From assembly GCA_015058295.1 (NCBI GenBank), contig SVCP01000006.1, forward strand, positions 1 through 60,344: a stretch of DNA of 60,344 nucleotides. The letters are read 5' to 3'. The number at the start of each line of letters is the position of its first letter. Within the stretch, counting starts at the first letter, position 1. Positions 3,473 through 43,656 of this stretch are shown here, piece by piece. This DNA is from Anaerofustis stercorihominis (lineage in GTDB: Bacteria > Bacillota > Clostridia > Eubacteriales > Anaerofustaceae). The position numbers were made by a program, and so were the translations under genes. Below the pieces are notes generated by a model that was not told the DNA's origin, did not search any database, and was given only the letters and a program-made list of their open reading frames with translations.

Positions 3473-3492
3473 ATCGTTTTCCTCCTTTTTAT

Positions 3493-6789: not shown

Positions 6790-7733
6790 TTTACTGTGAA
6801 CTCCCTGGTATCCGGAACTTTTACTTTCTGTAAAATTTCAGATGTGATCTTTTCCGCTGTATACTCATGCAGTCTTGCTTTCGAACTGAGAACGATACGA
6901 TGCGCACATACATCAGTGAATATTTCCTGCACATCTCCGGGAATGACATAATCTCTTCCTTCAAGATATGCAGCAGCCTTCGCCGCCTTACATAATGCAA
7001 GCGCACCTCTGGGGCTCACACCCAAAACAACATAAGCATTATTTCTCGATTCCTCAGCAAGAGCTGTTATATAATCGTATATTTCTTCAGCAACATGAAC
7101 AGCCATCGCTTCTCTGATAAGGCCTTCAATGCCTTCGGCATCGGTTACTGCATGGCAGTTATCAAGTGGGTTACCCTGATGTCTGTCCTTCATAAGTGCT
7201 ATCTGGTTTTCTCTGTCGGGATAACCGATAGACATCTTTATAAGAAAACGGTCAAGCTGTGCTGAAGGAAGAAGCTGTGTTCCGGCAGAACCTACAGGGT
7301 TCTGTGTGGCAAGAACCACAAACGGACTCGGAAGAGTATGTGTCACACCGTCTACGGTTACCTGATATTCTTCCATCGCTTCAAGAAGAGCTGACTGTGT
7401 CTTACTTGAAGTACGGTTTATTTCGTCTGCGAGAAGCAGATTGGTCATAATAGCACCACTCTGGTATTTAAGTTCCCCGGTAGCATTGTCGAATACAGAA
7501 AAACCGATAATATCAGACGGAAGTGTGTCTGATGTGAACTGCACACGCTTGTTCATAAGTCCCAGTGTTTTTGCAAACGCATTTGCAAGAGTAGTCTTTC
7601 CTGTTCCCGGAACGTCCTCCAGAAGAACGTGTCCCTGTGCAAGGATCGCCATCAACACTTTTCTTACGGCTTTTTCCTTGCCGAGAATGACCTTATTTAT
7701 TTCATTTTGTATTTCATCAGTCAACCTAACCAT
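6786..7733 (-). CDS. MoxR family AAA+ ATPase
   Basis: This 315-residue cytoplasmic AAA+ ATPase is of normal length for MoxR. Visible motifs are Walker A (EDVPGTGKTTLANAFAKTL, about residues 38-56), Walker B (LLLADEINR, about residues 100-108) and the sensor-1 region ATQNPVGSAGTQLLPSAQLD (about 143-162). MoxR proteins are chaperone-like ATPases that act on vWA-containing partners, here most likely the DUF58 protein whose gene overlaps its 3' end. Its ATG at 7733 overlaps the end of the upstream alpha/alpha-barrel gene by 8 bp, so that gene and the MoxR module are cotranscribed and probably translationally coupled. This ties the trio to the cobalamin-regulated secreted proteins. Confidence 0.95.
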   Translation of the reverse strand: MVRLTDEIQNEINKVILGKEKAVRKVLMAILAQGHVLLEDVPGTGKTTLANAFAKTLGLMNKRVQFTSDTLPSDIIGFSVFDNATGELKYQSGAIMTNLLLADEINRTSSKTQSALLEAMEEYQVTVDGVTHTLPSPFVVLATQNPVGSAGTQLLPSAQLDRFLIKMSIGYPDRENQIALMKDRHQGNPLDNCHAVTDAEGIEGLIREAMAVHVAEEIYDYITALAEESRNNAYVVLGVSPRGALALCKAAKAAAYLEGRDYVIPGDVQEIFTDVCAHRIVLSSKARLHEYTAEKITSEILQKVKVPDTREFTVK

Positions 7734-8841
7734 TTTTCTTCCTCTTTCCTTTGATAATCAATGTTACTGCAGCTATACACACAACAGCGACAAGCATAAG
7801 CGGCACTGTCGCCGCAGAAGCTGATGCCGGCGCTTCATAATCTGTAAAGTCAAATATCCATCCTTCACCGTTTCTCATTTTCTGTAATGAAATGAGAGCA
7901 AGCAAAGCCTGTGATGTTGCAAGATAATCTCCGGCGTTATCTTCAAGCAGATGCGAAAATGTTCCGTCTGCCTGAATATATCTTGTCATTGCCGAAAGTA
8001 TATTGTTTGAGCCTCTTTTAAATCTTGTATCTTCTTCGGGGTCAATGCCGAGAGCCGAAAGCGCCCATATAACCTGCGCACTGCTTTCACAGCTTGCTTC
8101 CGAGAAAGCTTCGAACATGCACTCATCTGTCATGCGGGACGCAAGAAAACCAAGAGCTTTGTCAATTACACCGGCATATTCATTTTTGTACGGTGCAAGT
8201 GCCTGAAGTGCCATTGCTGTAATGTCAACATCCGAGCCTCCTGCAGCAAGTCCGAAGCCGCCGTTTTCACTCTGTGCGTTTACAATTGCGGAAATAATAT
8301 CTTCCCTCGTATAAAGAGCACCCTGCGGAATTACCGTATCATATGCATCAAGGCATATAAGGGCATATATATATCCGTTCAGGCCCTGCGCACCGAGACC
8401 TCTTCCGCTGAAGTTATATGTACCTTCCGCAATAAGATCCACCGGTGTTCCGTCAGGCTTCGTGCCGAAATCAGTTGCATCTGCACCGAGCGCCGTAGCA
8501 GTAAGGGCTATGCGGTGATATGTTGTGGATTTTATTTCGTCCAGACAACCGTTTCTTTCATAGTTTTTTTCCACGTACTCTTTCAGATCATCAAGGTAGC
8601 TTTTGTAATTTTCTTTCATTCCGCAAAGAGCAAAACTGATCGCAGTCCAGTCACAAGCCGATGTTCCTGCAGGAAATTCATCCCCTTTTGCCAGGAGGCT
8701 TCCTCCTGTGCCTGCCATTGAAGAAAGTCCGTTGCAGGCATCGTCTATGACAGATTCAATATCCACACCTGCTGCAAATACATTCGTACTCAGCATCAAC
8801 AGTATCAGTATCAGGCAGATACCTGAATATATTTTTTTCAT
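7726..8841 (-). CDS. Surface-anchored alpha/alpha-barrel protein (prenyltransferase/transcobalamin N-terminal-like)
   Basis: This 371-residue protein has a signal peptide (residues 1-23, ending VFAA), about 300 extracytoplasmic residues, and a C-terminal helix (about 342-362) followed by KGKRKKNG, so it is anchored in the membrane and faces outward. The middle is a repeated alpha-hairpin toroid of the squalene-cyclase/prenyltransferase class. Repeat hallmarks include AQSENGGFG, DVDITAMALQALAPY, SSAQVIWALSALG and YLATSQALLALISLQ. The D-x-x-AMA-x-x-AL helix is shared with the alpha6-alpha6 barrel of transcobalamin and intrinsic factor (known family relation). The gene before it encodes the other transcobalamin-like half (DUF4430), and a B12 riboswitch heads the cluster, so corrinoid binding is a reasonable inference. 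A catalytic prenyltransferase is unlikely given secretion and the lack of an obvious active site. Confidence 0.85.
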   Translation of the reverse strand: MKKIYSGICLILILLMLSTNVFAAGVDIESVIDDACNGLSSMAGTGGSLLAKGDEFPAGTSACDWTAISFALCGMKENYKSYLDDLKEYVEKNYERNGCLDEIKSTTYHRIALTATALGADATDFGTKPDGTPVDLIAEGTYNFSGRGLGAQGLNGYIYALICLDAYDTVIPQGALYTREDIISAIVNAQSENGGFGLAAGGSDVDITAMALQALAPYKNEYAGVIDKALGFLASRMTDECMFEAFSEASCESSAQVIWALSALGIDPEEDTRFKRGSNNILSAMTRYIQADGTFSHLLEDNAGDYLATSQALLALISLQKMRNGEGWIFDFTDYEAPASASAATVPLMLVAVVCIAAVTLIIKGKRKKNG

Positions 8842-8858: not shown

Positions 8859-10898
8859 TTATTCTCCGGGATTATCCGGTTCAGGATTATCCGGCTCAGG
8901 ATTGTCCGGCTCGGGATTGTCCGGCTCGGGATCGTCCGGCTCAGGATCGTCCGGCTCGGGATCGTCCGGCTCGGGATTATCCGGCTCAGGATCGTCCGGC
9001 TCGGGATTGTCCGGCTCGGGATTGTCCGGCTCGGGATCGTCCGGTTCAGGATTATCCGGCTCGGGATCGTCCGGCTCAGGATCGTCCGGCTCGGGATCGT
9101 CCGGCTCAGGATCGTCCGGCTCAGGATCGTCCGGTTCAGGTGTGCCTGTCATAGGAAGAACATCTTTCTTCGTTTCATGACATTTTACGCACTTATATTC
9201 AATGTATCCGTCTGCCGTTTCGGTCGGCTCAACTCTCTCATCTTCATCCCAATCATGTCTGAGCGGCTGATATCCTCCGTTAATCCATACTCCGCAATAA
9301 CTGCTGAGTTTCCCTTTTCCTTCTCCCGTTGCATCAAATCCGCCGATGTCTTTTCCATATGCAAGGGTGAACCTGATATATATCCGGTCCCCTCCACTGA
9401 CGGGATATGCAGAAAGTCCTCTTCCGGGATATACTTCTCCGTTGATGGAATACATCCAGCCTGAACCCATTGTATAGTCATGTTCACCTATGGAGTCCCT
9501 GTCGGATCTTCCGGTAAGGGTTATCTGGTCACGGAGTATACAATTCCACAGTTTATCCGGAATTTCAGCACCGTATGCAACATCGCCTCTGTATATTGTT
9601 CTGAGATAAAAGCCTGTTGATGCGGAACCGTCATAAACAGCATCGTAACCGTATTCTTCCAGGAATTTTATAACTACTCCCGCAGCAGTATCCCCCTGCA
9701 CAATTTCGTATGTAGCTTCATCAATGATATCAAGTCCGATAGTTGTCGCATCAAGAATAATATCAACTTCTCCTAATGCATCGCCTTCACTGACCGTATG
9801 ATATCTGAAGTTATATACTTTGAACGTAGAATTTCCTTTTCTGTCCCAGGCTCTTACTTTTACGTTGTAATCTGCATAATCACCGACATTGGGCGGTTCA
9901 AAATGCAGCTCATATTCAGGACGGGAATCTCCTGTCTGCTTGGGAATAAGCTTTCCGTTAAGCCATACTTCAATATTATTTGATGTAATGACATCTCCTT
10001 CCGGCTGTGTTCTTGCGGATACCCAGAAAACAAAATCCTGTGTCTGCATAACTCCCGTAAATCCATCAAGATTTGTAACTATTGTCGGAGGATAATCCCC
10101 TACTGTCGGATTATCTTCGTCAGCTTTGTCAGCTTCATATCGTATTCTGTACTTTACATAATTGATATTGTCGCCGTTTTCTCTGAGATAAATGGTTATA
10201 TAGTTATCTGCGTTGAATTCAAGCTGTGCTTCATAATTTATTCCGTCTGCAGACTCAATCGGCATACCGTTCAGTGATGTCGTACTGTTCTGAATAACAA
10301 CTTTTACAGAAAGATCATCACCTTCACCTAAAGCATAAGCATAAAACTGAAGCTTTCCGTCAGGCAGTTCTGAAAGAGTGATCTGCATACTTCTCAGGTC
10401 TGTTGCTATCTGCGGTGAATCATTTCCGCCTTCACCTTCCTCTCCGGCAACTCCTTCACCATCGTTCCCGCTGTCTTCATTACCACCCGTCTGATTATCA
10501 TCATTTTCGTTTCCGTTGTTATCTCCGGGTTCGATATTTTCGTTGTCAGGAGGAGTCTGCGGATCTTCTTCCTGTTTATTTTCTTCTTCCGGCGGAGTTT
10601 CTTCCTCAGGAGGTGTTTCTTCTTTCTTCGGTGGGGTTTCTTCTTCCGGTGGAGGTGTTTCTTCTTCAGGTGGCGGAGTATCCGATTCCGAAGAAGAATC
10701 CACGTCTTCGCCATCTGACGTGCCGGCAAGATTTCCTTTTCCGTTCAGCTTTTCAGCAATAAGCTCATCAGACAACTCAGATATAGGACTGTCAGGCTTA
10801 TCATATCCGCCCTTACCGAGAGCACTAAATGCCCCAAGCAAAAGCATTGCAACAAGGAAAATGCTGACACCCCCCATTAATCTGTCCCGTTTTATCAT
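8859..10898 (-). CDS. DUF4430 (transcobalamin C-terminal-like) surface protein with PEPD repeats
   Basis: This 679-residue protein has an N-terminal signal anchor (residues about 9-30). An acidic Pro/Glu linker follows (about 70-150, ETPPPEEETPP type), then two beta-sandwich domains and a DUF4430 domain at about residues 395-530. The domain shows DTAAGVVIKFLEEYGYD, MGSGWMYSINGEVYPGRGLS and GGDRIYIRFTLAYGKDIGG. DUF4430 is the family described as transcobalamin-like C-terminal domain, the beta half of B12 carriers in animals. A short CxxC segment (KCVKCHETKK) and 19 PEPD[DN] repeats end the protein. There is no LPXTG motif or C-terminal helix, so it is probably held by the N-terminal helix. RBS AAGGAGACC precedes the ATG. 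The adjacent downstream gene supplies the matching alpha-barrel half. Confidence 0.88.
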   Translation of the reverse strand: MIKRDRLMGGVSIFLVAMLLLGAFSALGKGGYDKPDSPISELSDELIAEKLNGKGNLAGTSDGEDVDSSSESDTPPPEEETPPPEEETPPKKEETPPEEETPPEEENKQEEDPQTPPDNENIEPGDNNGNENDDNQTGGNEDSGNDGEGVAGEEGEGGNDSPQIATDLRSMQITLSELPDGKLQFYAYALGEGDDLSVKVVIQNSTTSLNGMPIESADGINYEAQLEFNADNYITIYLRENGDNINYVKYRIRYEADKADEDNPTVGDYPPTIVTNLDGFTGVMQTQDFVFWVSARTQPEGDVITSNNIEVWLNGKLIPKQTGDSRPEYELHFEPPNVGDYADYNVKVRAWDRKGNSTFKVYNFRYHTVSEGDALGEVDIILDATTIGLDIIDEATYEIVQGDTAAGVVIKFLEEYGYDAVYDGSASTGFYLRTIYRGDVAYGAEIPDKLWNCILRDQITLTGRSDRDSIGEHDYTMGSGWMYSINGEVYPGRGLSAYPVSGGDRIYIRFTLAYGKDIGGFDATGEGKGKLSSYCGVWINGGYQPLRHDWDEDERVEPTETADGYIEYKCVKCHETKKDVLPMTGTPEPDDPEPDDPEPDDPEPDDPEPDDPEPDNPEPDDPEPDNPEPDNPEPDDPEPDNPEPDDPEPDDPEPDDPEPDNPEPDNPEPDNPEPDNPGE
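8871..9140 (-). repeat. 15-bp tandem repeat coding PEPD[D/N]
   Basis: About 18-19 tandem copies of a 15-bp unit (plus strand GGCTCGGGATCGTCC and variants) encode Pro-Glu-Pro-Asp-Asp/Asn at the C-terminus of the DUF4430 protein. The units differ mainly at two wobble-like positions (CAG/CGG for Pro and ATT/ATC/GTT/GTC combinations for Asp/Asn). This pattern suggests expansion by slippage or unequal recombination. The encoded tail is stiff, extended and highly acidic. Confidence 0.95.
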
Positions 10899-10956: not shown

Positions 10957-12063
10957 TTATTTGTTTAATCTTCTTTTTCGTGAAATTGCAGTAATAAGAG
11001 CTGCAAAGAGAACAAACAATGTTCCCGCAACAAATGCATCAGCACTGTCCCCTGTAGACGGGCTTGCAGGAATCTGCGGATCCTTTTCCCAGCCGGCATA
11101 AAGTGTCATCTTATCATCACGGGCAACGTCATTCTCAAAATCCCAGAGTTGAGTAAGTTCTTTGTCTGTATACCAGCCTGTGAATTTATATCCTTTTTTA
11201 GTCGGATCTGCCGGCTTTGGAATTTTTTCACCTTTTGTTACTTCAATACCTCTGACTTTGCTGCCACCGTTCGTGTCAAATTTCACATCTGTAGTTGTAT
11301 CTTCCGGAACCGGAGAAGCTTTCCAGCCAGCATAAAGTGTCATATGTTCTGTAACAACATCGTTTTCGAAATCCCATTCATCTGTTTTTGAAATATTTGT
11401 ATACCAGCCTGTAAAAATATAGCCTTCTCTGACAGGATCCGCCGGTTTCGGAACTGTAGTCCCATATTCCGCATCTGCAGGCTCAACAGCACTGCCTCCG
11501 CATGAGTCAAAGGATACTGTGCATTTTGTTGTAATCTCTACAACAGCATCTTTTTTGATTCCCGGTACAGATCCGTCAATAACAAATGAATCCGAACCGT
11601 CATATGTTGACACCTTGCAGTTTTCACTTACGAGCTTTGAACTTCCTTTGTCTTTAATCACTCTGAGGGCGAAACTTCCGATAAACTCATCACTTTCCCA
11701 GAGTTCGCCACCTTCCATACCTACAAAATTAAGATAAAAGGCTCTGCCTCCTGTTCTTCTTGCCATATCAGTCCACTCAATACCGTCAGCAACCTGAACA
11801 CTGCCATCAACAAGTTCGAAAAATGTATCGTCGTACAGAATCTCATTCTGCATACCGTACATAAGAGCACTGTCATCAGCATCTGTTCTGCGAAGGTATA
11901 ATTTCACAGTGACGATTTCATCGGGAAGAGCTTTATAATATGTATCCTCCTCTACCGTAAGATCAAAAGCATAGCTTCTCGAAGAATCTGCCGCCGATAC
12001 AGATAAAGGCAGACTTCCCGCAAATATGCATATTACAAGTATCATACTCAGTATTTTTTTCAT
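10957..12063 (-). CDS. Membrane-anchored cohesin-like / InlB-repeat surface protein
   Basis: The chosen start is the ATG at 12063, which follows GAGGTAAAT and opens a clear signal peptide (MKKILSMILVICIFAGSLP). The protein is 368 residues. Residues about 28-180 form a cohesin-like beta-sandwich, with MQNEILYDDTFFELVDGS and a conserved DMARRTGGRAFYLNF stretch. Two InlB/Listeria-Bacteroides B-repeats follow (about 185-255 and 258-325), each ending in MTLYAGW. The C-terminus is a transmembrane helix plus RKRRLNK, which anchors the protein to the outer face of the membrane. It is a paralogue of the next gene upstream. If the cohesin-like domain binds dockerins, this is a surface receptor for the two dockerin proteins encoded upstream; that is inference. 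Confidence 0.87.
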   Translation of the reverse strand: MKKILSMILVICIFAGSLPLSVSAADSSRSYAFDLTVEEDTYYKALPDEIVTVKLYLRRTDADDSALMYGMQNEILYDDTFFELVDGSVQVADGIEWTDMARRTGGRAFYLNFVGMEGGELWESDEFIGSFALRVIKDKGSSKLVSENCKVSTYDGSDSFVIDGSVPGIKKDAVVEITTKCTVSFDSCGGSAVEPADAEYGTTVPKPADPVREGYIFTGWYTNISKTDEWDFENDVVTEHMTLYAGWKASPVPEDTTTDVKFDTNGGSKVRGIEVTKGEKIPKPADPTKKGYKFTGWYTDKELTQLWDFENDVARDDKMTLYAGWEKDPQIPASPSTGDSADAFVAGTLFVLFAALITAISRKRRLNK

Positions 12064-12113
12064 ATATTTACCTCTGTTGTTATATTCTCCTTTTGACATA
12101 ATGAACCTTCTCA

Positions 12114-13178
12114 TTAATTTTTAATTCTCCATTTTGCATACAGTGTCATATTTTCGTTTACTTTGTCACTGCCGAAATTCCATTGTGTTGTCAGTTCGCT
12201 GTCTTTATACCATCCTTCGAAGATATAATTTTCCCTTCCCGGGTCTTCAGGGCAATTAACAGGACTGCCTTTTTTCACAAATACAGATCTGACAGCGCTT
12301 CCCCCGTTTGATACAAAGCTCACTTTTTTCTTCCGCAGAGCAGCCAGAGCTATAAGCAGTATCACTGCGGCTGCCGAAATGAAGATTTCACCTCCGGAAC
12401 CGCCTCCGCCGAGTACAGGCGGAGTTTCAGACCAGCCTGCATAAAGTGTCATATTTGATCTGACTACATCCTTGCGGAAATTCCAGGCTTCGGTCTTGTC
12501 CAGATCTTTATACCAGCCTGTAAAATATAATCCTTCTCTTACAGGATCTTCCGGCTTTATGATTTTTTCACCGTACTGAACCACCTGCGAAGGCACTTCA
12601 CTTCCGCCCGAAGAATCGAAATTTATCACACACCCACCGGATAAGATGACAACCGCATCTTTTGTTACCTTTGAAGCATCTGTTTCATACAGGTTTTCTA
12701 TCTCATATCCGGACATACCGTCTTTTGATGATATTTTCAGATTCTGACTGATTACAGCTGATGCCCCCTGTGTGCCGATAACCTTCAGCTGAAAGCTTCC
12801 TACAAGAACTTCTGACGGCCAGTCTGTACCGCCTTTAAGCGACAGAAAGTTCAGATATACTGCCCGTCCTCCTGTTCTTCTTGCCATATCTTTAAATTCA
12901 ACACCACTGTATGTCGTCTGGCTGCCTTCCACAAGCTCAAAAAATGCATCGTCATACCAGATCTCATTCTGCATTGCGTACATAGGCGCATTTTCGTCTG
13001 AGTCAGTCCTGTTCAGATACATTCTGACGGTTACGGTTTCTCCCGGACTTGCCTGATATTCGTTTTTCATCTCCACGCTGACATCAACTTCATATGTCCT
13101 TTCGTCCGATGCAAAAACACCTGCAGGCAGCACACACACAAGCAGCACCGCCAGTACCGCACAAATCATCTTTTTCAT
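12114..13178 (-). CDS. Cohesin-like / InlB-repeat protein with an internal membrane segment
   Basis: This 354-residue paralogue of the downstream gene starts at ATG 13178 after AGAGGTAAAAAT, with a signal peptide (MKKMICAVLAVLLVCVLPAG). The cohesin-like domain (about residues 25-180) shares MQNEIWYDDAFFELVEGS and DMARRTGGRAVYLNFLS with its sister. One InlB B-repeat follows (about 188-255, MTLYAGW), then a hydrophobic helix (about 265-285) with RKKK. Unlike its sister, the protein does not stop there: a second InlB repeat (about 288-352, MTLYAKW) lies after the helix. The topology is therefore odd, since the last repeat would sit in the cytoplasm if the helix spans the membrane. A rearrangement between the repeats is a likely explanation. 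Confidence 0.87.
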   Translation of the reverse strand: MKKMICAVLAVLLVCVLPAGVFASDERTYEVDVSVEMKNEYQASPGETVTVRMYLNRTDSDENAPMYAMQNEIWYDDAFFELVEGSQTTYSGVEFKDMARRTGGRAVYLNFLSLKGGTDWPSEVLVGSFQLKVIGTQGASAVISQNLKISSKDGMSGYEIENLYETDASKVTKDAVVILSGGCVINFDSSGGSEVPSQVVQYGEKIIKPEDPVREGLYFTGWYKDLDKTEAWNFRKDVVRSNMTLYAGWSETPPVLGGGGSGGEIFISAAAVILLIALAALRKKKVSFVSNGGSAVRSVFVKKGSPVNCPEDPGRENYIFEGWYKDSELTTQWNFGSDKVNENMTLYAKWRIKN

Positions 13179-13203
13179 ATTTTTACCTCTTTTCTTTTAT
13201 TCA

Positions 13204-13289
13204 GCCTTTACGGAAATTCCCTGATTGCAGGACAAAACCGTAAAGCCTGAAAACGCCCAATTTCCCACTTCCCCCATTGGGGAAGTGGG
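13204..13289. other. Two intergenic hairpins without a U-tail
   Basis: The spacer between the dockerin gene ending at 13317 and the next cohesin-like gene holds two stem-loops. One has 11-bp arms (CCCACTTCCCC / GGGGAAGTGGG, 13264-13289). The other has 8-bp arms (CTTTACGG / CCGTAAAG, 13206-13245). Neither is followed by a T-run in the minus direction, so they are not typical intrinsic terminators. mRNA processing, stability control or partial attenuation inside the operon are possible roles. Confidence 0.6.
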
Positions 13290-13316
13290 TAAGGTTATCA
13301 TATTAAAGAATAATTT

Positions 13317-15392
13317 TTACTGAATTGCAGCAACGATAGCTGTTGCGTCTGTAACATCAATAGCTTTATCGTTGTTTACATCAGCGTTGAGGAATTTCTG
13401 CATAGATACAACTGCGAAATCTTCATATGCACCGTTGTACATATCGTATGTAAGCTGTGCGTCGTTGATATCAACAAGACCTGACATATTTACGTCAGTC
13501 TTATCTGCCAGTGTTACGGCTGTTGCTTCAACTGCTGTAATGTTTGTTTTTGCAGCTTCGGCTGTCAGAGCTTCGCCTTCAACAACTACGAGATATGCAT
13601 AAGCTTCATATTCTTCGCTGTAGTACATTGCATTTGTGTCATATGCAAATACTTTGCCTTCTTCAAGTGTGCCTGTTGCTGTTACAAGGAACATTGTCTT
13701 GCCGTCAAGTTCTACGTATTCACTTACTTCAACTGCAAGATCAGATTCCTTTTCAACAGTGATAACGAGATCACCTGTTACAGCCTTGATTGTGTATGTA
13801 CCATCACCGTTGTCTTTTACTTCTGCATTTTCTCCGCCCATTGTTGCTGTTACTGTGTAGTTATAGCCGACAGCTTTTGTAACTGTGAATGTGTAATCTT
13901 CATCTTCCGTTGCTGTAGCTTCACCTGCAGCTTCGCCTGCACCTGTACCTGCGAATGTTACTTCAAACTGTTCAGCAGGAATTTCTGTCTTTGTTACAAC
14001 AAATTCGATAGCACCTTTAATATCTGCACCGGGGATTGTGTATGTATCGTTTTCGACCGTAAATCCTGTGTAGTTTTCACCACCGATTTTTACGGCTACT
14101 TCATATGTGTAATCCTCATCTTTTGTAAGTGTAGCTGTGTAATCCTTGCCGTACTGTGCTTTAAGTTCACCTGTCATATCTGCGCCAAGTGTTACATCGT
14201 ATTTCTTACCTTCTTTTGTTGCTGTAATCACGATATTTCCGTCAACATCTTCGATTGTGAATGTGCCGTCACCGTTGTCTTTGACTGCAGCTTCTTTATC
14301 GCCCATTGTTGCTGTTACAGTGTAATCAAAGTTCTTATCTTTCGCTTCAAATGTATAATCTTCACCTGCGTTTACTGTTGCTTCACCTGTGAAGTCATCC
14401 GGAAGTGCTACCGTGTAACCGTCTGCCTTTACTATCATAGCATCATCAACAAGTACAGCGTCCGGTGCGTTTGTTGAGATAGCTCCTTCAGCATTATCTA
14501 CTTTTGCTGTTGTAACTTTGATTTCAGATTCTTTTGCAGCAATTGCTTTGAATGTGAGTGCAAATGCTTCACCGAATTCTTTGTCTGCGCCGTAGCCCTG
14601 AACTCTTACTGTGCCTTCGCCTGTTGTTACTGTAAGGCCTTCGATTGCTGTTGATGTAAGTTCAAGTGCTGCTGCATCATAAGCGAATGTCATATCAAAA
14701 GCATTGAAATTTGTTTCGTCTTCTGTTGTGTAACCTACTTTTACGGGAACATTTACTGTTTCACCGACATTTACTGTTTTATCTTCCGGCATTGTTACTG
14801 TGTAAGCCGGTTCTGCAGGAGCTTCTGTAAGAACATTCACCTTGATGGGATTTTCTTTGCCTGTTGCGTTGACAATAGCTACGTCTACCGGATCTGTAAC
14901 AAAGTTACCATCTTCATTTTCATATTCTATGCCTGTTTTTGAGCTGATCTTATCCGCATAAACTGCAGTTTCTGCTGCTGTAATATCCTGTTTTGCTGTG
15001 AGAACTACAGTTGCAAGAGTTCCTGCTTTGACAGTATGAAGAACGGTCGTACTGCCTGATGTTACAGATACTGAATCCATCGGTGATTCATATACATACA
15101 CAGAGTTTTTGTTTACACCGGCTTTGCTGTACACACCTCCTCTTTTAGCGCTTGTAATTTCAAAATAATCGCTGTCAAAAACGATTTCCCACTGCCAGAT
15201 ATATGCATCTGTCCAGTCCTTGTCGATTTTAAGCTCGAGAGTGAGTTCTTCGCCTTTAAGTACTGTGTCCTTATCTGCCGTAAGGGTTACTTTGGGCATA
15301 TCGTCTGCAAAAACAGACGGAACACATCCAAGAATAAGCAGAGCTGCGAGAAGAAAGCTCATAACTCGTTTCAAGTTAAATTTTTCTTTCAC
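13317..15392 (-). CDS. Secreted cohesin-like protein with C-terminal dockerin
   Basis: The start is set at a GTG (15392), because AGAGGTATTCAC lies directly before it as for the neighbouring genes. This gives 691 residues with a signal peptide (KRVMSFLLAALLILG to VFAD). Two cohesin-like beta-sandwiches come first (about residues 30-180 and 195-320). Three tandem beta-domains follow, each with a 'GDGTYTIK/GDGTFTIE' turn (for example VKDNGDGTFTIEDVDGN), similar to bacterial Ig-like repeats. The last about 60 residues form a type I dockerin with paired calcium-loop sequences (VNMSGLVDINDAQLTYDMYN and ADVNNDKAIDVTDATAI). Carrying both cohesin-like and dockerin parts, it could act as an adaptor in a surface complex. 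No catalytic domain is seen. Confidence 0.88.
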   Translation of the reverse strand: MKEKFNLKRVMSFLLAALLILGCVPSVFADDMPKVTLTADKDTVLKGEELTLELKIDKDWTDAYIWQWEIVFDSDYFEITSAKRGGVYSKAGVNKNSVYVYESPMDSVSVTSGSTTVLHTVKAGTLATVVLTAKQDITAAETAVYADKISSKTGIEYENEDGNFVTDPVDVAIVNATGKENPIKVNVLTEAPAEPAYTVTMPEDKTVNVGETVNVPVKVGYTTEDETNFNAFDMTFAYDAAALELTSTAIEGLTVTTGEGTVRVQGYGADKEFGEAFALTFKAIAAKESEIKVTTAKVDNAEGAISTNAPDAVLVDDAMIVKADGYTVALPDDFTGEATVNAGEDYTFEAKDKNFDYTVTATMGDKEAAVKDNGDGTFTIEDVDGNIVITATKEGKKYDVTLGADMTGELKAQYGKDYTATLTKDEDYTYEVAVKIGGENYTGFTVENDTYTIPGADIKGAIEFVVTKTEIPAEQFEVTFAGTGAGEAAGEATATEDEDYTFTVTKAVGYNYTVTATMGGENAEVKDNGDGTYTIKAVTGDLVITVEKESDLAVEVSEYVELDGKTMFLVTATGTLEEGKVFAYDTNAMYYSEEYEAYAYLVVVEGEALTAEAAKTNITAVEATAVTLADKTDVNMSGLVDINDAQLTYDMYNGAYEDFAVVSMQKFLNADVNNDKAIDVTDATAIVAAIQ

Positions 15393-15420
15393 GTGAATAC
15401 CTCTTTCTTTTTTTATTGCC

Positions 15421-15443
15421 AAGGGAAGGGAAACCCTTCCCTT
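15421..15443. other. Intergenic hairpin before the cohesin/dockerin gene
   Basis: A perfect 10-bp inverted repeat (AAGGGAAGGG / CCCTTCCCTT) with a 3-nt loop lies between the 2201-residue protein gene and the next gene. In the minus direction it is followed by GGCAATAAAA, with no U-run, so it does not look like a terminator. It may protect or process the long mRNA. Confidence 0.6.
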
Positions 15444-15477
15444 AATAATTTAAATATTTGTTGCTAATGTATTATTT

Positions 15478-18400
15478 TCAGCCTTCGTACGGGAGTTTAT
15501 CAACGCTTCCGTTTATGTACTGAAGAACAACACTTACGTCATTCGTATCAACCTGATCATCTCCGTTGACATCAGCAGCTGCTCTCTGTGCTTCAGTAAA
15601 CGGAGCATCACCTGTTCCGTTTATGTACTTGAGCATATCGCTTACGTCGTTCGTATCAATCTGATTGTCTCCGTTAACATCACCGTATTTGATCTGCGGT
15701 TCTTCAACTACCTGCCATGTAAGGATCGGATATCCGCCGTTGATGTTGTTTTTATCAGCTGCGTATGCCTTGCCGAGAGTTCCAGCCATACCTTTAAGCT
15801 GTTCAACAGTTACTTCTGTTCCGATACTTGAATCACCGTTGCTGCCAATATAGTAGGAGTTAACTCCGTTTGCAGCTTTTGTGCTGTAGGTCAGCGCTCC
15901 GTAATTCTTCGGTGCTGTAACAACCCCGAGGTTATAGCAGTTTTTAATAGTAAATGCCTGGGACGCAACAATGTATCCTCCGGAAATACCACCGGCATTA
16001 GACTTTGTTGCTGTAACATCGCCAATGTTATAGCAGTTCCTGATTGTGGAACTCATATACTGCTGTCCGGCAATACCGCCTACATATTGTGATCCTGTCA
16101 CAGTGACATCACTGATACAACCTTCAACCGTTGCATTATTCCTAAGTGTACCTACAATACCGCCTGCGTTATTGGCTGTTGATGTTACCTGGCCTCTTAC
16201 ACCGAGATTGCTGATCATGCCATCACTTGAAAGCTGAGCAAAGAGACCTTGACCCTTACTTGTGGAGTTGATGTACAGATCTGTTACCCAGTGTCCGTTA
16301 CCATCGAATGTTCCGCTGTAAGCTACTATCGGTGTCCAGTCAAATCCGCCGAGAGAAATATCTGCGGTAAGAACAGCATTTGCGTTATTGTGGTTAGTTG
16401 CGAACCATGCAAGTTCCCCACCTGTGCTGATCTGATACACACCGTTAGCGTCTTTCTGCGGTGTTGTCGTTGTTTTTCCGTCCCATACAGCGCCTTCTAC
16501 TTTACGCATTTTTACAGAAACTGTTTTTGTCTTGTTTGCCGCATCTGCCATAGTAACATCAAATGAACTGCGTTCTGTGATGTATCCGTCAAGAGATGCT
16601 GTATAGCTGTATGTACCGAGTGGCAGATTGTATACGCCGTCTTCAGCTTTCAGTTCTGTACCTGTGCTGTCTTTGACAACGATAGTCGTACCTTCAACAT
16701 CTGCTTTTACAGTAACATCAATATAAGGCATATCCGTAACTGTAAATTCAATATCTGGAAGAACGCAACGTGTATGCTGTGCATTGCCGGCGCTGAAATT
16801 TGCTCCGCAGCCTGCGTCAGTCAACATTCGGTGCAATCCCGGCTCACCGCCCATAATGTTAAATGCGATGTATCCGCCTGTTAATTTGACTTCACCATTT
16901 GCTGTTTCGGGGATTGTGATTGTGTATGAATTTGTGCTGATAAAGTCATACTGACCTCCTGTAGTGGATACAGTATATCCATCGGGCACATTATACGTAA
17001 TCGCATGCCCCTGTCCGAAGCCCGGGTTATAAATACCGGAAATCTTTGACACAGGAGTATACAGACCCTCGTAAACTACCTTGATCTGATCTCCCGCAAT
17101 AATACCTTCTGCACGGCTGAGGTTTGTAACTGTTCTTGTAACTTTTGCAGCACGTACGATCTGATATTCAGTTACATCGCCCTTTGTGAAGCGGAGAATG
17201 TTGTTTCCGCCCACAAGACCGTCTGCTGTGAACTTGCCGTCTGCGAAAGTTACGTCAGACCATGTTTTGCCGTTATCTACGGACAATTCTGCTTTTTCGG
17301 GAATATCTTCGCCCATAGTTGCCGTAAATGTCATACTGCCTGTTTCATCCATAAAGTAAACAGTATCAAATTCGACATCCCATACATTTGAGCTGCCTTC
17401 GGCAGTCATCTTCAATGTGTTTTCGCCTTCACCTACCTGGATTACAACGAGGCCTTTTCTCTGCGGATCAGTTGCGCCGTAGAATCCATCGTAAGTAGTA
17501 CCGTTTCCGCCGATCTGAATCGCATCATATGTGATCTCTACGATTGCTGTACCTTCTGAAACGCCTGTGATATCCATCCAGTTTCCTGTAGCATTACCTG
17601 TGCAGACATCATCAACAACATCTACTTTGATATGCTCTTCACCGGAAATAATGTTATAGTGGAAGTCCGGCTCGATCATGATATTCGCTGTGTCGGAGTT
17701 GATGATCTGCCATGCACCACGATAACCTCTCAGACGGAATGTTTCGTCTTTGTCTATTCTCAGGTTATTCTGAGCATTGACATTGAGCATTGTGCTGGCT
17801 TCCATACGTTTCTGAATATTTGCATTGTCCAGCTTGTGTCCTGTTGCCTTAGGATCTTCGTTTTCTTCGAATGTTACATTGATCGTTTCGGCAGTATTAC
17901 CGAAATAACCTGCACGAGTTACCTTACCGTCCATTGAAACACGGTATGTAAGGTTACCTCCGCCTGAAGTCTTGAATGTATGTGTTACTATGCCATTTTC
18001 ATCAGCTTCGGAAACTGTTTTTGTGGTGATTTCTTCCACATTAAAGTTATTGATCTGATTGAATACCTGAACCTTTGCACCTTCCGGAGCTGTTACGGTA
18101 TGACGAACAATAGCAGCCAATGAAAATGTCTTGTTCTGAACAGCGTTGCCTGCTGTGAATGTAACGTTGGAAACCGGAGCAACTGCGTATGTTTCTCCGA
18201 GTTCACCGTTGATTGCAACACTCTGCTGATAAACAAGTGCGTTTCCACGTGCCATAACAAGTACAGGTGTTACTACTCTGTTGTTGTCGTCAATATACTG
18301 CTCACCGTTTACAACATCCGGCAGGCCGGCCGGAATCAGGTTAAGAGTATAATCACCGGCATTTGTAATATTTGCGTTTGTTGTGTAGTAATTAACCTGT

Positions 18401-21400
18401 CTGAGCGTCATACTCTGGCCTTCGCCTGATGCTGTTCCGTCAGACATGATTTCTTCGCTTAACGGTACCTTGAATGTCATACCGCCAAGATCTGTTTCGC
18501 CATCTGTACCACGGTATGTGTATGTGCCTTCCGCAACATTGAGAACGTACTGGTGATATCCGTCGACTTCACCATTGTCTTTAACCTCTGTTGTAAGTGC
18601 TGTTGTTGTATCGCTTCCTGAATAGAAAGTTACATTTGCGGTAGAGGGGCCGACGTTGATTGTTACTATGTATTTACCGCACACATCACATGCTCCGTCG
18701 TTGTCTGCATCAGCACATTCGCTTACTTTCATCGTGCAGACATCGCAGATATGGTCATCGTCATTGTTTGTATGCTGTTGACATTCTGTTTTGAAGACAA
18801 AATAGTGTGCATACTTTGTCACATCTTCACCTGTTTTGTTATAGATAAAGAAGGCGAAGTCTGCTCTTGTCTTCTGATTGTTGTTAGTTCCTGCAGAGTT
18901 ATAGCCGTTGTCGTACTGCTGCCATACGACACCTTCGTCAAGTATCAAATCAAATATTTTGCTCGGGCCGCCGGCTAAAGTATCTTTAGAAAGCACAATG
19001 TTATGAACATACGTATCGTGCGTTCCTTTGTATGGAAGTGTGCAATCTTCCACAAACTCGACGCTGTGATCAACTACAACTACATTGTAAATATCTGCCA
19101 CTGCACCGCCTGCAAGCTCAATCCTGCCTGAATCATCGTCAACAACAGTGAACTGGAATGCATATTGTGCAGTTGCCATTCCGTCATCAGCAGTAAATAC
19201 TACCTGATAGATGCCTTTTTCTGTCGGCGCATATGTGAATTTTCCGTCAGTGATAGTTGTGTCCGCATCATTGATTACTGCATAATTGTAAGTATCCCAG
19301 CTTCCTCCGACTGATGTCGCTTCTTTTACTGCAACACTGTATTCAAGTTCATCATTCTGTGCATCTTCGAAAAGATCCGCAACAACAAACTCTTTAGTTT
19401 CTCCGGTTTTAATCTTGAGCGTTGTATCAAATCCCGCAGCGAGCGTCGGTGCTGTGTTATAGCGTGTTACAGTTACTTCACAGCTTGCTTTCACTCCGTT
19501 TACAGCTGTCACTGTAATTGTTGTTTCGCCTGCTTTCAACGGTGTTACAAGACCGTTTGCATCTACTGTTGCAACACTTTCCTCAGAAGATGTCCATGTG
19601 ACAGTTTTATCCGTTGCTTCCGCAGGAATAACACTTGCGCTGAGCTGAAGTTTCTGTGTTGTATCGATTGTTGCTTCGTATTTGTCAAGAAGGATCCTGG
19701 TTACGTCACCGTCTCCTGCTTCAACTTGTTCTTCACCCACAACGATTCTTGAAACGCCCGGAGCAAATTTTGCATCTTTTGTAGTTGCATCCGGATCCGT
19801 TGCCATAATATAATATGTGCCGTTTTCCAGTCCTTCGGGGATTGTAACTGTAATTTCGTTATCATCGTCTGATGTGTATTCACATTCTGCGTCAACAACA
19901 ACTTCCCACTCTGAATCATAAAGAGCAACACCGAGGCCTACACTGCCGTTTACAGCCTCAAAATCTTTGGCTGTTTCTGATGTGCCCCATTTGAATAAAT
20001 CTACTTTAAGGGTTTCACCGGCTTTTGCTTTGTACTCATCTTTATCGAAGCTTACAAATCCGCCGCCTTTAACATTGAATCCCCAGTCTGTGAACATACC
20101 AACATCCCATGTATCTCCGTCAGAGAGAAGCATATAATCGGATGTAGCGCCCCAGCCCGGACCCATATACGGATAACAGTGGTTGCGGTAATACATAAGG
20201 TTTTCATCATGTCCCCAGAAGTTAACCATATAGATTGACTTTGCTCCGCCTGATGTATATAAAGCTTTCAGGCCATTACTTTCGTATGCAACTTCACCGT
20301 CCATATACAAAACATCATTTTCACTGACATATTCAAGTACACCGCTTGTTCCGATGCAGCATTGTTCTTCCGCAAGTCCCATATAGTATCTTTCAATAAG
20401 ATAGATATAAAGATGCAGGCCTGTGGGACGCTGTATCAGATTCTCGTTTACATAATCTCCACGTCCGTTTTCTGTTCCATAACGATAATAGTCCTCAAGT
20501 CCATATGAAGCGAGATCAAAGTACGGTACAGTTACCTTGAGATTTGACATAACAGTTTCACCGTCTGCCGCCATGATCGGAACACCATCGTTTGAAAGTG
20601 TTACATATACAGTAACGGAAGATTTGTCTGTTTCATCATAACCGTACTGTGCATCAATACCTTCGTTAGCCTTTGTTATGGTTGCTTTGATATTGTGCGA
20701 AATCTTTTCTCCTCCGGCACATTCTGCAGTAAGTGTGATGTTGAATACATCGCCCTCCTTCGGTGCGCAGAAATTAAAGATTCCGTTTTCATCGATTTTT
20801 GTATGTGTTTCACTGTAGCCTTCTTCAGCGATTTCGTACTCATAACCTGTAATCTCGTGCTTGCTGTCATTGAATACAGCACCGAGTGCAAGCTTATAAA
20901 GGCCGCCTGCGCTGACTTCGATTTCTTCCGGTGCATCTGCGGAAACTTCAATGCAGCCTTCAGGCAAGATTACTTCATCCGTATATGTGAATGAGAAGAA
21001 TTCTACCGGTGCATATGACTTTTCAGCATCCGGTCCGGTTTGAACACTTACGATGTTTCCTGTCTTTGTTCCGTCTTCACCTTCCGCAAGAGCATAATTT
21101 TCTACAAGGAACTGAACGTCAGTATATGTATCATTGTCTCCCGTTGCCTGAAGAGCCGGTCCTCCCGCATTTGAGGCTTCAACTGTTCCGTCAGCAGAAA
21201 CTGTTACTTCTGCGGAATATCCGTTGATCGTTGCACTTGTAACAGTATCAAGCTTCAGCTCTTTTCCATCAGAGGTCCAGAGACCTGACGCATAGTCATT
21301 TCCGTCATATGTTACGATGACTTTTTCTGTTCCCTGAGGCACGTTTACGTTGTAATACGGAACAGCTTCAAATTCCATGCCACCTCTGCTTGTGAAATCA

Positions 21401-22083
21401 ACAGATGTCTGATAAACAACATCTTCAGCAGAAAGTTCTTCTCCGTTTGCCATAACTTTTGTATGGATCTTTTCCGGTGCCTGCGGCACATCCGGAACAA
21501 CAGGAACTTCCGGTTCTTCTGTAGCCGTCACGTATTCAAATGTGAAGAAGTTTACCGGGGCATTGGCTGCTGATGCGTCATATTCCACAGCAACTGCGTA
21601 ACCGTCAAGAAGGTTTAGTTCTGTTACTGTACCATCCCAGTCTGTTGAAATGTATTCCATCGGGATTGTTACGGTAACAGTTTCATCCGCATTCTTAACA
21701 TACTCAAACTGCGCGCCATCTCCGCTCCACATTGAAGTATCCGCATAATACCCATAGGCATACGGTTTTTTGGTTGTATAATCTTCTCCTAACTGAAGAC
21801 TTATATCTGCGGGATATGTAACCTTAACAGCCTCCGTTCCTTCCGGAATCTGTACAAGGTAATGCGGGATATCATCATATGAGCTACCCCAGGAGTTTGA
21901 ATAACTTACTGAATCCTCCCGGATAACCTCAACAGTATTTCCGTCACTTGTTGAAATTGCAGAGAACGGAGTATCTTCTGCCAATACCCCTGTGGGTACT
22001 GCTGAGAATACCATTGCCATAGCAAGCAACATAGCAATTATACGTTTTGATTCCGAACGTATTTTTCTGAAACTTGTTTGCAT
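15478..22083 (-). CDS. Giant secreted multidomain dockerin protein
   Basis: This 2201-residue protein is the largest in the window. The ATG at 22083 follows AAGGAGCGAATTT. A signal peptide covers residues 1-36 (GVLAED). Two related modules of about 160 residues follow (about 40-195 and 205-370, each ending in an FFxFxY strand). A BIG2-type Ig-like domain lies at about 787-875 (SASVIPAEATDKTVTWTSSE). A Cys/Asp-rich segment with paired DxxCDVC motifs is at about 1100-1145. GLUG-like repeats occupy about 1950-2085 (GGIVGTLRNNATVEGC, GGIAGQQYM, GGISGGYIV). A C-terminal type I dockerin has two near-identical loops (DVNGDNQIDTNDVSDML, DVNGDDQVDTNDVSVVL). No glycosidase or protease active site is recognised. 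It is the first large gene after the B12 riboswitch, which suggests adhesion, scaffolding or ligand capture rather than polysaccharide cleavage. Confidence 0.9.
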   Translation of the reverse strand: MQTSFRKIRSESKRIIAMLLAMAMVFSAVPTGVLAEDTPFSAISTSDGNTVEVIREDSVSYSNSWGSSYDDIPHYLVQIPEGTEAVKVTYPADISLQLGEDYTTKKPYAYGYYADTSMWSGDGAQFEYVKNADETVTVTIPMEYISTDWDGTVTELNLLDGYAVAVEYDASAANAPVNFFTFEYVTATEEPEVPVVPDVPQAPEKIHTKVMANGEELSAEDVVYQTSVDFTSRGGMEFEAVPYYNVNVPQGTEKVIVTYDGNDYASGLWTSDGKELKLDTVTSATINGYSAEVTVSADGTVEASNAGGPALQATGDNDTYTDVQFLVENYALAEGEDGTKTGNIVSVQTGPDAEKSYAPVEFFSFTYTDEVILPEGCIEVSADAPEEIEVSAGGLYKLALGAVFNDSKHEITGYEYEIAEEGYSETHTKIDENGIFNFCAPKEGDVFNITLTAECAGGEKISHNIKATITKANEGIDAQYGYDETDKSSVTVYVTLSNDGVPIMAADGETVMSNLKVTVPYFDLASYGLEDYYRYGTENGRGDYVNENLIQRPTGLHLYIYLIERYYMGLAEEQCCIGTSGVLEYVSENDVLYMDGEVAYESNGLKALYTSGGAKSIYMVNFWGHDENLMYYRNHCYPYMGPGWGATSDYMLLSDGDTWDVGMFTDWGFNVKGGGFVSFDKDEYKAKAGETLKVDLFKWGTSETAKDFEAVNGSVGLGVALYDSEWEVVVDAECEYTSDDDNEITVTIPEGLENGTYYIMATDPDATTKDAKFAPGVSRIVVGEEQVEAGDGDVTRILLDKYEATIDTTQKLQLSASVIPAEATDKTVTWTSSEESVATVDANGLVTPLKAGETTITVTAVNGVKASCEVTVTRYNTAPTLAAGFDTTLKIKTGETKEFVVADLFEDAQNDELEYSVAVKEATSVGGSWDTYNYAVINDADTTITDGKFTYAPTEKGIYQVVFTADDGMATAQYAFQFTVVDDDSGRIELAGGAVADIYNVVVVDHSVEFVEDCTLPYKGTHDTYVHNIVLSKDTLAGGPSKIFDLILDEGVVWQQYDNGYNSAGTNNNQKTRADFAFFIYNKTGEDVTKYAHYFVFKTECQQHTNNDDDHICDVCTMKVSECADADNDGACDVCGKYIVTINVGPSTANVTFYSGSDTTTALTTEVKDNGEVDGYHQYVLNVAEGTYTYRGTDGETDLGGMTFKVPLSEEIMSDGTASGEGQSMTLRQVNYYTTNANITNAGDYTLNLIPAGLPDVVNGEQYIDDNNRVVTPVLVMARGNALVYQQSVAINGELGETYAVAPVSNVTFTAGNAVQNKTFSLAAIVRHTVTAPEGAKVQVFNQINNFNVEEITTKTVSEADENGIVTHTFKTSGGGNLTYRVSMDGKVTRAGYFGNTAETINVTFEENEDPKATGHKLDNANIQKRMEASTMLNVNAQNNLRIDKDETFRLRGYRGAWQIINSDTANIMIEPDFHYNIISGEEHIKVDVVDDVCTGNATGNWMDITGVSEGTAIVEITYDAIQIGGNGTTYDGFYGATDPQRKGLVVIQVGEGENTLKMTAEGSSNVWDVEFDTVYFMDETGSMTFTATMGEDIPEKAELSVDNGKTWSDVTFADGKFTADGLVGGNNILRFTKGDVTEYQIVRAAKVTRTVTNLSRAEGIIAGDQIKVVYEGLYTPVSKISGIYNPGFGQGHAITYNVPDGYTVSTTGGQYDFISTNSYTITIPETANGEVKLTGGYIAFNIMGGEPGLHRMLTDAGCGANFSAGNAQHTRCVLPDIEFTVTDMPYIDVTVKADVEGTTIVVKDSTGTELKAEDGVYNLPLGTYSYTASLDGYITERSSFDVTMADAANKTKTVSVKMRKVEGAVWDGKTTTTPQKDANGVYQISTGGELAWFATNHNNANAVLTADISLGGFDWTPIVAYSGTFDGNGHWVTDLYINSTSKGQGLFAQLSSDGMISNLGVRGQVTSTANNAGGIVGTLRNNATVEGCISDVTVTGSQYVGGIAGQQYMSSTIRNCYNIGDVTATKSNAGGISGGYIVASQAFTIKNCYNLGVVTAPKNYGALTYSTKAANGVNSYYIGSNGDSSIGTEVTVEQLKGMAGTLGKAYAADKNNINGGYPILTWQVVEEPQIKYGDVNGDNQIDTNDVSDMLKYINGTGDAPFTEAQRAAADVNGDDQVDTNDVSVVLQYINGSVDKLPYEG

Positions 22084-22262
22084 AAATTCGCTCCTTTTCT
22101 TAAAAATATAAATTATGATAATCGCCTGTCGGCGGAAAGAAAGTTACGCCAAGCTTCTTTATAAAAAAGAAAAGCCCGGCAGACAGGACAAAAAGCCCTA
22201 TCTTCCGAACTTCGGTTCTTCCGTCAGTTCATGCAGATATGGATTTTAATAATAATGACAAA
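22084..22262 (-). other. Intergenic leader with possible RNA structure
   Basis: The 179 bp between the YezD-like gene and the giant gene contain no ORF. In the minus direction they include a short inverted repeat (CCGAAGTTCGG, plus strand 22206-22216) and CCTGTC...GACAGG arms about 65 nt apart, plus runs of T. No known riboswitch motif was recognised. A partial terminator or processing site is possible. Confidence 0.4.
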
Positions 22263-22421
22263 TTAATTCTCGCTCGTCAGCTGGATACTTTTGCGAATCT
22301 CCTCGATCCGTATCGGAGCATTGTCTTTGACGATCACTCTGATTTCCCCGTATCCGAGAGAGCGTATAAGCTGAATCAACTTCGTTTCAGCCTTCGTAAG
22401 CTCATTTCTTGAAGCTTCCAT
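22263..22421 (-). CDS. YezD-like small protein (DUF2292)
   Basis: The chosen start is the ATG at 22421, because AGGAAGG lies 6-7 nt upstream; an in-frame start at 22445 would overlap that site. The product is 52 residues. The phrase LIRSLGYGEIRVIVKDNAPIRIEE matches the DUF2292/YezD pattern of a short helix, then a beta hairpin ('YGSVTIIVQDGKVVQIE' in the family), ending in a basic region. The biochemical role of this family is not established. It is the first gene after the B12 riboswitch terminator and so should be the first product made when the switch is open. Confidence 0.75.
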   Translation of the reverse strand: MEASRNELTKAETKLIQLIRSLGYGEIRVIVKDNAPIRIEEIRKSIQLTSEN

Positions 22422-22463: not shown

Positions 22464-22491
22464 AAAAAGCTGTGGTGATATACACCACAGC
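22464..22491 (-). terminator. Intrinsic terminator of the B12 riboswitch
   Basis: A perfect 9-bp stem (GCTGTGGTG / CACCACAGC, loop of 5) is followed in the minus direction by TTTTTATATT. It lies between the B12 box and the first gene of the cluster. This is where an expression platform that ends transcription when cobalamin is bound should be. Confidence 0.88.
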
Positions 22492-22549
22492 CGTTTTTCT
22501 GTGCATAATAATACCTGTATGTCCAATACTCGGGACACAACCTGGAAAT

Positions 22550-22744
22550 TTACAATCCGGAGAGGTCTTCTGACTTGTATCTAAAACGAATATATGTCTG
22601 CCTTCTCAGAATTTCTCCAATGGCTGAATATCAACGACATATACCCTCAATACTTACAGCGCCGGTAGCGTGGGGACTTACACCCCGTTCCCTTGTCAAG
22701 CTCACACCCGTATAATACAGGTCGAACCACCGAATCCTTATGTT
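22550..22744 (-). promoter_or_regulatory. Cobalamin (B12) riboswitch aptamer
   Basis: Read on the minus strand, the leader has conserved B12 riboswitch blocks in the right order. GGTGGTTCGACC comes first, then AAGGGAACGGGGTGTAAGTC, then CCCCACGCTACCGGCGCTGTAA. A variable arm follows, and finally the B12 box AAGTCAGAAGACC (plus strand 22564-22576). A strong intrinsic terminator follows about 70 nt later. Exact aptamer ends are approximate. It controls the minus-strand cluster starting with the YezD-like gene; by family rule, bound cobalamin represses expression. Confidence 0.95.
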
Positions 22745-22750
22745 GTTTTA

Positions 22751-22779
22751 ATTATACTGCCACATATTCATAATGTCAA
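22751..22779 (-). promoter_or_regulatory. Consensus sigma-70-type promoter of the B12-controlled cluster
   Basis: On the minus strand a perfect TTGACA (22774-22779) is followed by a 17-bp spacer and a perfect TATAAT (22751-22756). Transcription would start near 22744, exactly at the beginning of the riboswitch. A full-consensus promoter fits a gene set whose main control is the RNA switch. Confidence 0.93.
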
Positions 22780-26266: not shown

Positions 26267-26308
26267 GACAAGTATGGAAAATAATTTATCTTGGAGGCAA
26301 TTAATACA

Positions 26309-43501: not shown

Positions 43502-43526
43502 ATGAATTCTCCTTTATTTTAATGAT

Positions 43527-43623
43527 TATATATTACAACAAATGATTGCATTCAACAACCCGCAGTTTGCACCATGATTGATTATGCATCTCAACTTTAT
43601 GTTGTGGCAATGGTTGCATTCAA
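43527..43623 (-). promoter_or_regulatory. Promoter and repeated operator-like motif of GPH paralogue 1
   Basis: TTGAAT (43550-43555), a 17-bp spacer and TATATA (43527-43532) form a minus-strand promoter. The sequence AATGATTGCATTCAA overlapping the -35 (43541-43555) is repeated as AATGGTTGCATTCAA at 43609-43623. This is a pattern expected for a repressor or activator site. Confidence 0.6.
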
Positions 43624-43656
43624 TTTTAGAATAACACAATATTTTGCGACAATAAA

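Follow-up and report, generated by a model that had tools for sequence, protein, structure and literature searches.

A cobalamin-riboswitch operon of Anaerofustis stercorihominis combining predicted cohesin–dockerin scaffold parts with a split transcobalamin-like binder

What is known of cohesin–dockerin assembly comes mostly from the degradation of polysaccharides, and gut communities are shaped by competition for vitamin B12; to our knowledge, surface capture of B12 by Gram-positive gut bacteria has been little studied. Here we describe an operon from Anaerofustis stercorihominis in which predicted cohesin and dockerin proteins are encoded behind a cobalamin riboswitch and beside a putative B12 binder that resembles transcobalamin divided between two genes. 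The operon lies in a 60,344-nucleotide stretch (GenBank assembly GCA_015058295.1, contig SVCP01000006.1, numbered on the forward strand), which we call the window. We think it probable that the operon encodes a surface apparatus that scavenges B12 or other corrinoids by means of a two-tier cohesin–dockerin scaffold and passes the ligand to an energy-coupling factor (ECF) importer.

In its predicted assembly the operon resembles a cellulosome, with a tandem-cohesin scaffoldin that carries a distinct dockerin of its own, surface-anchored cohesins, and cargo bearing duplicated-loop dockerins, yet by its domain content it is not one. It is controlled by a B12 riboswitch, and we rejected a cellulosome proper upon finding no glycosidase domain and hence no catalytic subunit. 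Clostridium perfringens NagJ is an O-GlcNAcase with a non-cellulosomal cohesin; its cohesin (PDB entry 2jh2) resembles the second cohesin of the scaffoldin described below, whereas the cohesins here are encoded in a nutrient-uptake operon.

On the B12 side, bacterial proteins with SLBB and toroid domains occur in CbiO/CbiQ operons, some fused to beta-propellers, and have been proposed to scavenge B12, several of them as surface complexes, and to be the origin of the B12 binders of animals (Burroughs et al. 2007, PMC1796856). The present operon shares with them the SLBB (DUF4430) and alpha/alpha toroid domains and the secreted or anchored location; it differs in its separate alpha and beta genes, its cohesin–dockerin scaffold, and its dockerin-bearing propeller, and the terms cohesin and dockerin have 0 occurrences in that paper. 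Human transcobalamin, intrinsic factor, and haptocorrin likewise combine a toroid with a beta-grasp domain and top the list of structures matched by a fused bacterial relative, but the window encodes the two domains as separate proteins, of which the toroid is membrane-anchored. BtuG of Bacteroides (PMC6143338), a lipoprotein that partners BtuB, the transporter in the outer membrane, is also a beta-propeller at the cell surface whose gene accompanies those for B12 uptake; we liken it by description only, and the propeller here is of the PQQ_2 type, carries a dockerin, and accompanies uptake genes of the ECF type. Thus, a B12-binder operon of established kind appears to have an added scaffold for which we found no report: a literature search that covered few subscription journals and preprints returned no paper linking cohesins and dockerins to B12 uptake.

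Cohesin and dockerin proteins behind a cobalamin riboswitch

The control region and the scaffold and cargo genes are as follows.
22751..22779, minus strand: promoter-like site, TTGACA-17-TATAAT, 12/12 consensus positions, the sole perfect match in the region (consensus scan)
22542..22749, minus strand: cobalamin riboswitch aptamer (Rfam RF00174, 60.3 bits against a gathering score of 31.5, E 1.8e-12)
22468..22492, minus strand: intrinsic terminator 3' of the aptamer, a 10-pair stem followed by a T run (region fold z -3.45)
15478..22083, minus strand: 2201-residue secreted cargo protein with immunoglobulin-like (Ig-like) and Glug domains and a C-terminal dockerin (Pfam, NCBIfam)
15511..15687, minus strand: type I dockerin of the 2201-residue protein (PF00404, 5.8e-10, residues 2133-2191)
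13317..15422, minus strand: 701-residue scaffoldin with two cohesins, repeat domains, an X-like module, and a divergent dockerin (profiles, model)
14823..15287, minus strand: scaffoldin cohesin 1, aligned with cohesin 1 of the relative L070; lower-confidence model
14418..14807, minus strand: scaffoldin cohesin 2 (PF00963, 26.8 bits against a cut-off of 24.1, at 14505-14798)
13317..13505, minus strand: scaffoldin dockerin, a conserved divergent type (orthologues in L054, L055, and L059 over the Pfam cut-off)
12114..13178, minus strand: 354-residue membrane-anchored cohesin (cohesin domain 12645-13103), with a second Flg_new repeat past the transmembrane segment
10957..12114, minus strand: 385-residue membrane-anchored cohesin with two Flg_new repeats (cohesin domain 11533-11982)
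2..3556, minus strand: N-terminal 1185 residues of a beta-propeller protein, with its dockerin end on contig C63 (L023:9951-10820, minus strand)

Four minus-strand proteins occupy positions 10957-22083, where the first-pass annotation had described cellulosome-like parts under B12 control: two proteins ending in dockerins, one of them with cohesin-like domains, and two membrane-anchored proteins that begin with cohesin-like domains. That description holds. The dockerin of the 2201-residue protein scores 39.7 bits against a PF00404 cut-off of 22.9, and 45.4 bits in a genome-wide search, while the divergent dockerin of the 701-residue protein is sub-threshold in the window (the complete sequence scores 10.5 bits and the isolated module 19.6 bits), with its three listed orthologues passing. 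Control by B12 agrees with the strong Rfam match, and the terminator 3' of the aptamer is likely the expression platform of the riboswitch. Nine genes follow on the same strand, and a tenth is truncated by the contig end; because the intergenic gaps are small or nil as far as a transglutaminase-like gene, the genes between 22083 and the contig end most likely form one transcript.

By its predicted domains, the 701-residue protein is the middle tier, a scaffoldin, rather than cargo. Its second cohesin exceeds the Pfam cut-off, and the profile of this domain matches 3l8q and the NagJ cohesin. Cohesin 1 is placed by alignment with cohesin 1 of the L070 scaffoldin, a direct relative in which Pfam Cohesin matches two stretches (1.1e-11, 45.5 bits), this cohesin being the top one. 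An AlphaFold model of the whole 701-residue protein has a mean predicted local distance difference test (pLDDT) score of 75.8, with cohesin 2 mostly at 75-90. Its top Foldseek matches are cohesins, the first being the type II cohesin dyad 3l8q (E 8e-11); structural comparison with cohesins, which the first-pass annotation had suggested, thus favors the assignment.

For the 2201-residue protein, Pfam and NCBIfam return Ig-like, Glug, and dockerin domains only, with long stretches free of any domain match, and no operon protein matches a glycoside hydrolase family in either collection, in keeping with the absence of a glycosidase noted earlier. Genuine cohesin and dockerin modules would suit a reduced or divergent cellulosome acting on polysaccharide or glycoprotein, as would the likeness of the Ig-like region at residues 791-954 to part of 7quz, a PDB entry titled beta-1,3-glucanase. 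We nevertheless regard such an enzyme complex as very improbable, given the lack of glycoside hydrolase matches, the cobalamin riboswitch in control, and the other dockerin open reading frames (ORFs) of the genome, which by eye encode a leucine-rich-repeat-like protein and a short Ig-like protein. We take the captured ligand to be, most likely, a corrinoid and not a polysaccharide. A DUF4430-like domain considered at residues 475-675 of the 2201-residue protein was dropped (hhalign probability 6.7%).

The propeller protein of the tenth gene apparently ends in a dockerin on C63. Its two pieces align, with a short gap between them, to the complete orthologue in the same-genus genome G001 (L045:1951-6354), a PQQ_2 propeller with a dockerin, and the piece on C63 has at its end a dockerin (33.2 bits against the cut-off of 22.9) closely similar to that of the 2201-residue protein. 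No DNA overlap was found between the window contig and C63, so the join rests on the G001 orthologue. The only propeller match seen for this protein is the general PQQ_2 one.

The 354- and 385-residue proteins both begin with a signal-peptide-like stretch and contain a cohesin domain together with Flg_new repeats and a hydrophobic segment as anchor. Pfam Cohesin matches nine of the ten members of their family (best 5.3e-6); the 354-residue protein itself is sub-threshold, at 18.7 bits whole and 21.1 bits for the domain alone against 24.1. This cohesin type is rare: a search at E 1e-8 found it in 7 of 391 Clostridia genomes, with this genus accounting for two. In four of five other genomes, the gene immediately upstream of the membrane cohesin encodes a protein whose end is dockerin-like (two by profile and two by eye), which argues for a partnership between the membrane cohesins and dockerins of the scaffoldin type. 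Seven of the ten membrane cohesins (window 12114-13178, minus strand; L021:235-1308; L022:799-1914; L054; L059; L062; L070) carry a second Flg_new-like repeat past the transmembrane segment, which should therefore be cytoplasmic, an odd place for a surface repeat.

An alignment of the dockerins resolves two groups, cargo and scaffoldin. Scaffoldin dockerins are on average 52% identical across species and 28% identical to cargo dockerins. Cargo dockerins are 62% identical to one another within the window species and 72% within L070, against a mean of 36% and a maximum of 55% between species (76 pairs); window and L070 are the two species with two cargo dockerins in view. In cellulosomes, dockerin loop positions 10 and 11 set cohesin specificity, and at these positions the two cargo dockerins read TN/TN in the window, against MA/MM in L070. 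Such agreement within a species is as would be expected from a shared cohesin partner, although duplication within a species could also yield it. It could be that propeller, beta, and toroid proteins capture corrinoids while the cohesins bind other partners, with no two-tier complex, as the predicted nature of the cohesin–dockerin pairs and the existence of dockerin-tailed propellers with no scaffoldin in view would allow. We find this quite unlikely, because dockerin types match within species, the scaffoldin dockerin and membrane cohesin are constantly adjacent, and a genome search found hardly any further cohesins in the own genome.

A putative split transcobalamin-like binder

Directly downstream of the scaffold genes lie two genes outside the span that the first-pass annotation covered, and it missed them.
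8859..10898, minus strand: 679-residue protein with a transcobalamin-type beta domain (DUF4430/SLBB, about 9345-9767; PF14478)
7726..8841, minus strand: 371-residue membrane-anchored alpha/alpha toroid, transcobalamin alpha-like (PF00432, 7.9e-4)

Animal transcobalamin is built of these two domain types, DUF4430 and toroid, here predicted in separate genes. The DUF4430 domain alone scores 26.7 bits against a cut-off of 23.8, and all 14 relatives (14/14) match the family. The window toroid is sub-threshold by itself, and among its relatives 23 of 28 match Prenyltrans and 5 of 28 match Cobalamin_bind. The C terminus of the 679-residue protein (8859-9150, minus strand) is a long EPDDPEPDN repeat, in place of which L022 has Cys-containing repeats.

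Searching genome contigs for the toroid yielded 80 loci in Clostridia and Bacilli. DUF4430 accompanies it in 75, an ECF component in 52, a cobalamin riboswitch-model match in view in 35, a propeller match in 22, and a scaffoldin in 6; of the 41 riboswitch matches that this search gave, 39 share the toroid's strand. A strict regular expression for the B12 riboswitch missed most sites, and a covariance model was used instead.

Toroid and DUF4430 are fused in 31 of 114 toroid ORFs. For one such fusion, L101, transcobalamin, intrinsic factor, and haptocorrin account for the 15 best PDB matches of the AlphaFold model (predicted template modelling score 0.64), aligned across both domains, with a root mean square deviation so large (about 21 Å) that the domain arrangement of L101 must either differ or be poorly predicted. 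Its toroid (residues 24-303, VIA-align) matches toroid folds; transcobalamin is absent among the 50 matches listed for these residues, all of which a single domain occupies. Against PDB sequences, the toroid profile found terpene cyclases and other toroid proteins but no transcobalamin, and the DUF4430 profile reached human Transcobalamin-1 at E 0.23. The transcobalamin likeness thus rests on fold comparison, since sequence profiles gave no direct match.

Recurrence and the proposed route of corrinoid capture

Scaffoldin and membrane cohesin stand beside the B12 binder in L054, L055, L059, L061 (= G006), L062, and L070. The last of these, a metagenome-assembled genome from goat rectum, has the full gene order under its own cobalamin riboswitch (207-420): DUF2292, a 962-residue dockerin cargo, the scaffoldin, two cohesins, the beta protein, the toroid, MoxR, DUF58, a transglutaminase-like protein, and a propeller with a dockerin. 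In the same-family relative L022/L061, ECF genes lie within this operon. In the own genome, contig C63 carries, some 12 kb past the gene for the propeller dockerin, EcfAA, EcfT, and a DUF4430 protein; the ECF ATPase is 66% identical to that of L022, and no S component was recognized among these genes. C63 (L152:1258-9271, minus strand; G000:C63) thereby holds a second B12-type cluster, of a membrane-anchored propeller, a DUF4430 protein, EcfT, and EcfAA, with a sub-threshold cobalamin riboswitch match just upstream. In G001, a cohesin-like anchored protein adjoins a secreted dockerin protein (L045:17959-18918 and 19024-19899, minus strand), next to degV and just past the B12 operon.

The organism itself appears unable to make its own B12. 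Its 98.9% complete genome has no CbiC and nothing that exceeds the cut-off for CbiA, and the salvage gene cobT (named from sequence) appears under a second cobalamin riboswitch on C73. The window also encodes an acetyl-CoA synthase, a CO dehydrogenase, and a uroporphyrinogen-decarboxylase-type methyltransferase (named by eye from sequence), so the organism, a putative gut-type acetogen, should need corrinoids.

We picture capture as follows. Scarce B12 would let the riboswitch permit transcription. The 2201-residue and propeller cargo, by their matching dockerins, would dock onto the two cohesins of the scaffoldin, whose different dockerin would in turn bind the single cohesins of the 354- and 385-residue membrane proteins. 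The assembled scaffold would thereby adjoin the 371-residue toroid and 679-residue DUF4430 proteins, which would sandwich the corrinoid as in transcobalamin and hand it to the ECF importer encoded on C63. The genes and their order, the riboswitch, the domains, the fold of the fused relative, the pairing of dockerin types, and the recurrence in other genomes are observed; we infer which cohesin meets which dockerin, each binding step, the cargo's aid in capture, and the hand-over. The more specific version, in which the propeller and the giant multi-domain protein are dockerin-tagged, exchangeable corrinoid catchers that plug into the membrane-held scaffoldin and feed the split transcobalamin and importer in a B12-switched manner, we would give roughly even chances.

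Reuse of cellulosome modules in a capture scaffold, suggested at first pass, remains the best-supported reading, refined here by the 701-residue middle tier and the corrinoid ligand; it draws on the downstream split binder, the third dockerin protein, the L070 gene order with its riboswitch, and the signs of auxotrophy. Several observations weigh against it. All cohesin–dockerin and B12 binding is predicted, from sequence and models, and corrinoid binding by the 2201-residue protein is conjectural, the DUF4430 idea having failed. Cohesin 1 of the window scaffoldin is modeled at low confidence. Sequence comparison of the membrane cohesins with PDB gave no match (E up to 1), for which reason Pfam across the family was used instead, and their profile is only weakly like that of the scaffoldin cohesins (hhalign probability 16%). 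The ECF genes lie outside the window, and in G001 the cohesin gene and the B12 binder are on different contigs. Finally, the dockerin-tailed propellers of L056, L094, L103, and L111 have no scaffoldin in view, and no cohesin was seen in the genome of L056. Genome-wide cohesin presence proved uninformative as a test of such propellers, 19 of 22 genomes being positive whether or not the propeller bears a dockerin.

The cohesin–dockerin proteins could instead assemble into a complex for adhesion or of the surface layer, one that has only its B12-responsive operon in common with the uptake genes and holds no corrinoid, possibly keeping the cell close to corrinoid-producing partners. The Ig-like, cadherin-like, Glug, and propeller domains of the cargo are all frequent in adhesins, and the relatives of the membrane cohesins include five other surface cohesins whose loci, as far as they are in view, have no B12 gene. 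In at least two genomes, however, scaffoldin and cohesin sit within the operon, between riboswitch and B12 binder, and the propeller also occurs in toroid loci free of scaffoldin (22 and 6 of the 80 loci have propeller and scaffoldin, respectively); we therefore consider an adhesion role unlikely.

If a corrinoid-capturing scaffold is indeed encoded here, the plug-and-socket system of cohesin and dockerin would be a general route to surface capture machines, and the bacterial transcobalamin-like proteins would find their place within a defined one. The locus also supplies new candidate cohesin–dockerin pairs.

Downstream genes and small elements

The remaining features of the operon are these.
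22266..22421, minus strand: small ORF, DUF2292 (YezD-like; Pfam, 22.7 bits against a cut-off of 22)
22165..22236, minus strand: terminator-like RNA element 5' of the 2201-residue gene, 21-nucleotide core identical in L070 (z -3.73)
6786..7733, minus strand: MoxR-type AAA ATPase (PF07726, 5.9e-56)
5689..6789, minus strand: DUF58 protein (PF01882, 1.1e-5)
3493..5685, minus strand: membrane transglutaminase-like protein (PF01841, 1.7e-18), Asn at the catalytic Cys position in alignment with 6g49

In the transglutaminase-like protein, Asn replaces the Cys of the GFC motif of the TgpA-type 6g49, and relatives that bear the motif have Ser or Asn there; the protein is therefore probably catalytically dead. 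Our guess is that it, MoxR, and DUF58 serve in assembly or maturation of the surface complex.

In the two complete loci, those of the window and of L070 (about 547-708, plus strand), the DUF2292 ORF separates the riboswitch from the cargo gene. The core of the RNA element that follows is GACGGAAGAACCGAAGTTCGG, with the L070 copy at 720-795 (plus strand). It recurs with one mismatch at L156 (G000:C15:7212-7232), ahead of another secreted repeat protein, where a second similar copy directly trails it. An Rfam search with the element at 22165..22236 gave no match, nor was one found with up to 2 mismatches in 390 other sampled Clostridia genomes.

Elsewhere in the window, acetyl-CoA synthase-like paralogues (26291-28441, plus strand; 31154-33292, minus strand) flank an unrelated gene near the CO dehydrogenase gene, and a tandem of three closely similar major facilitator superfamily transporter genes occupies 42089-46908 (minus strand).

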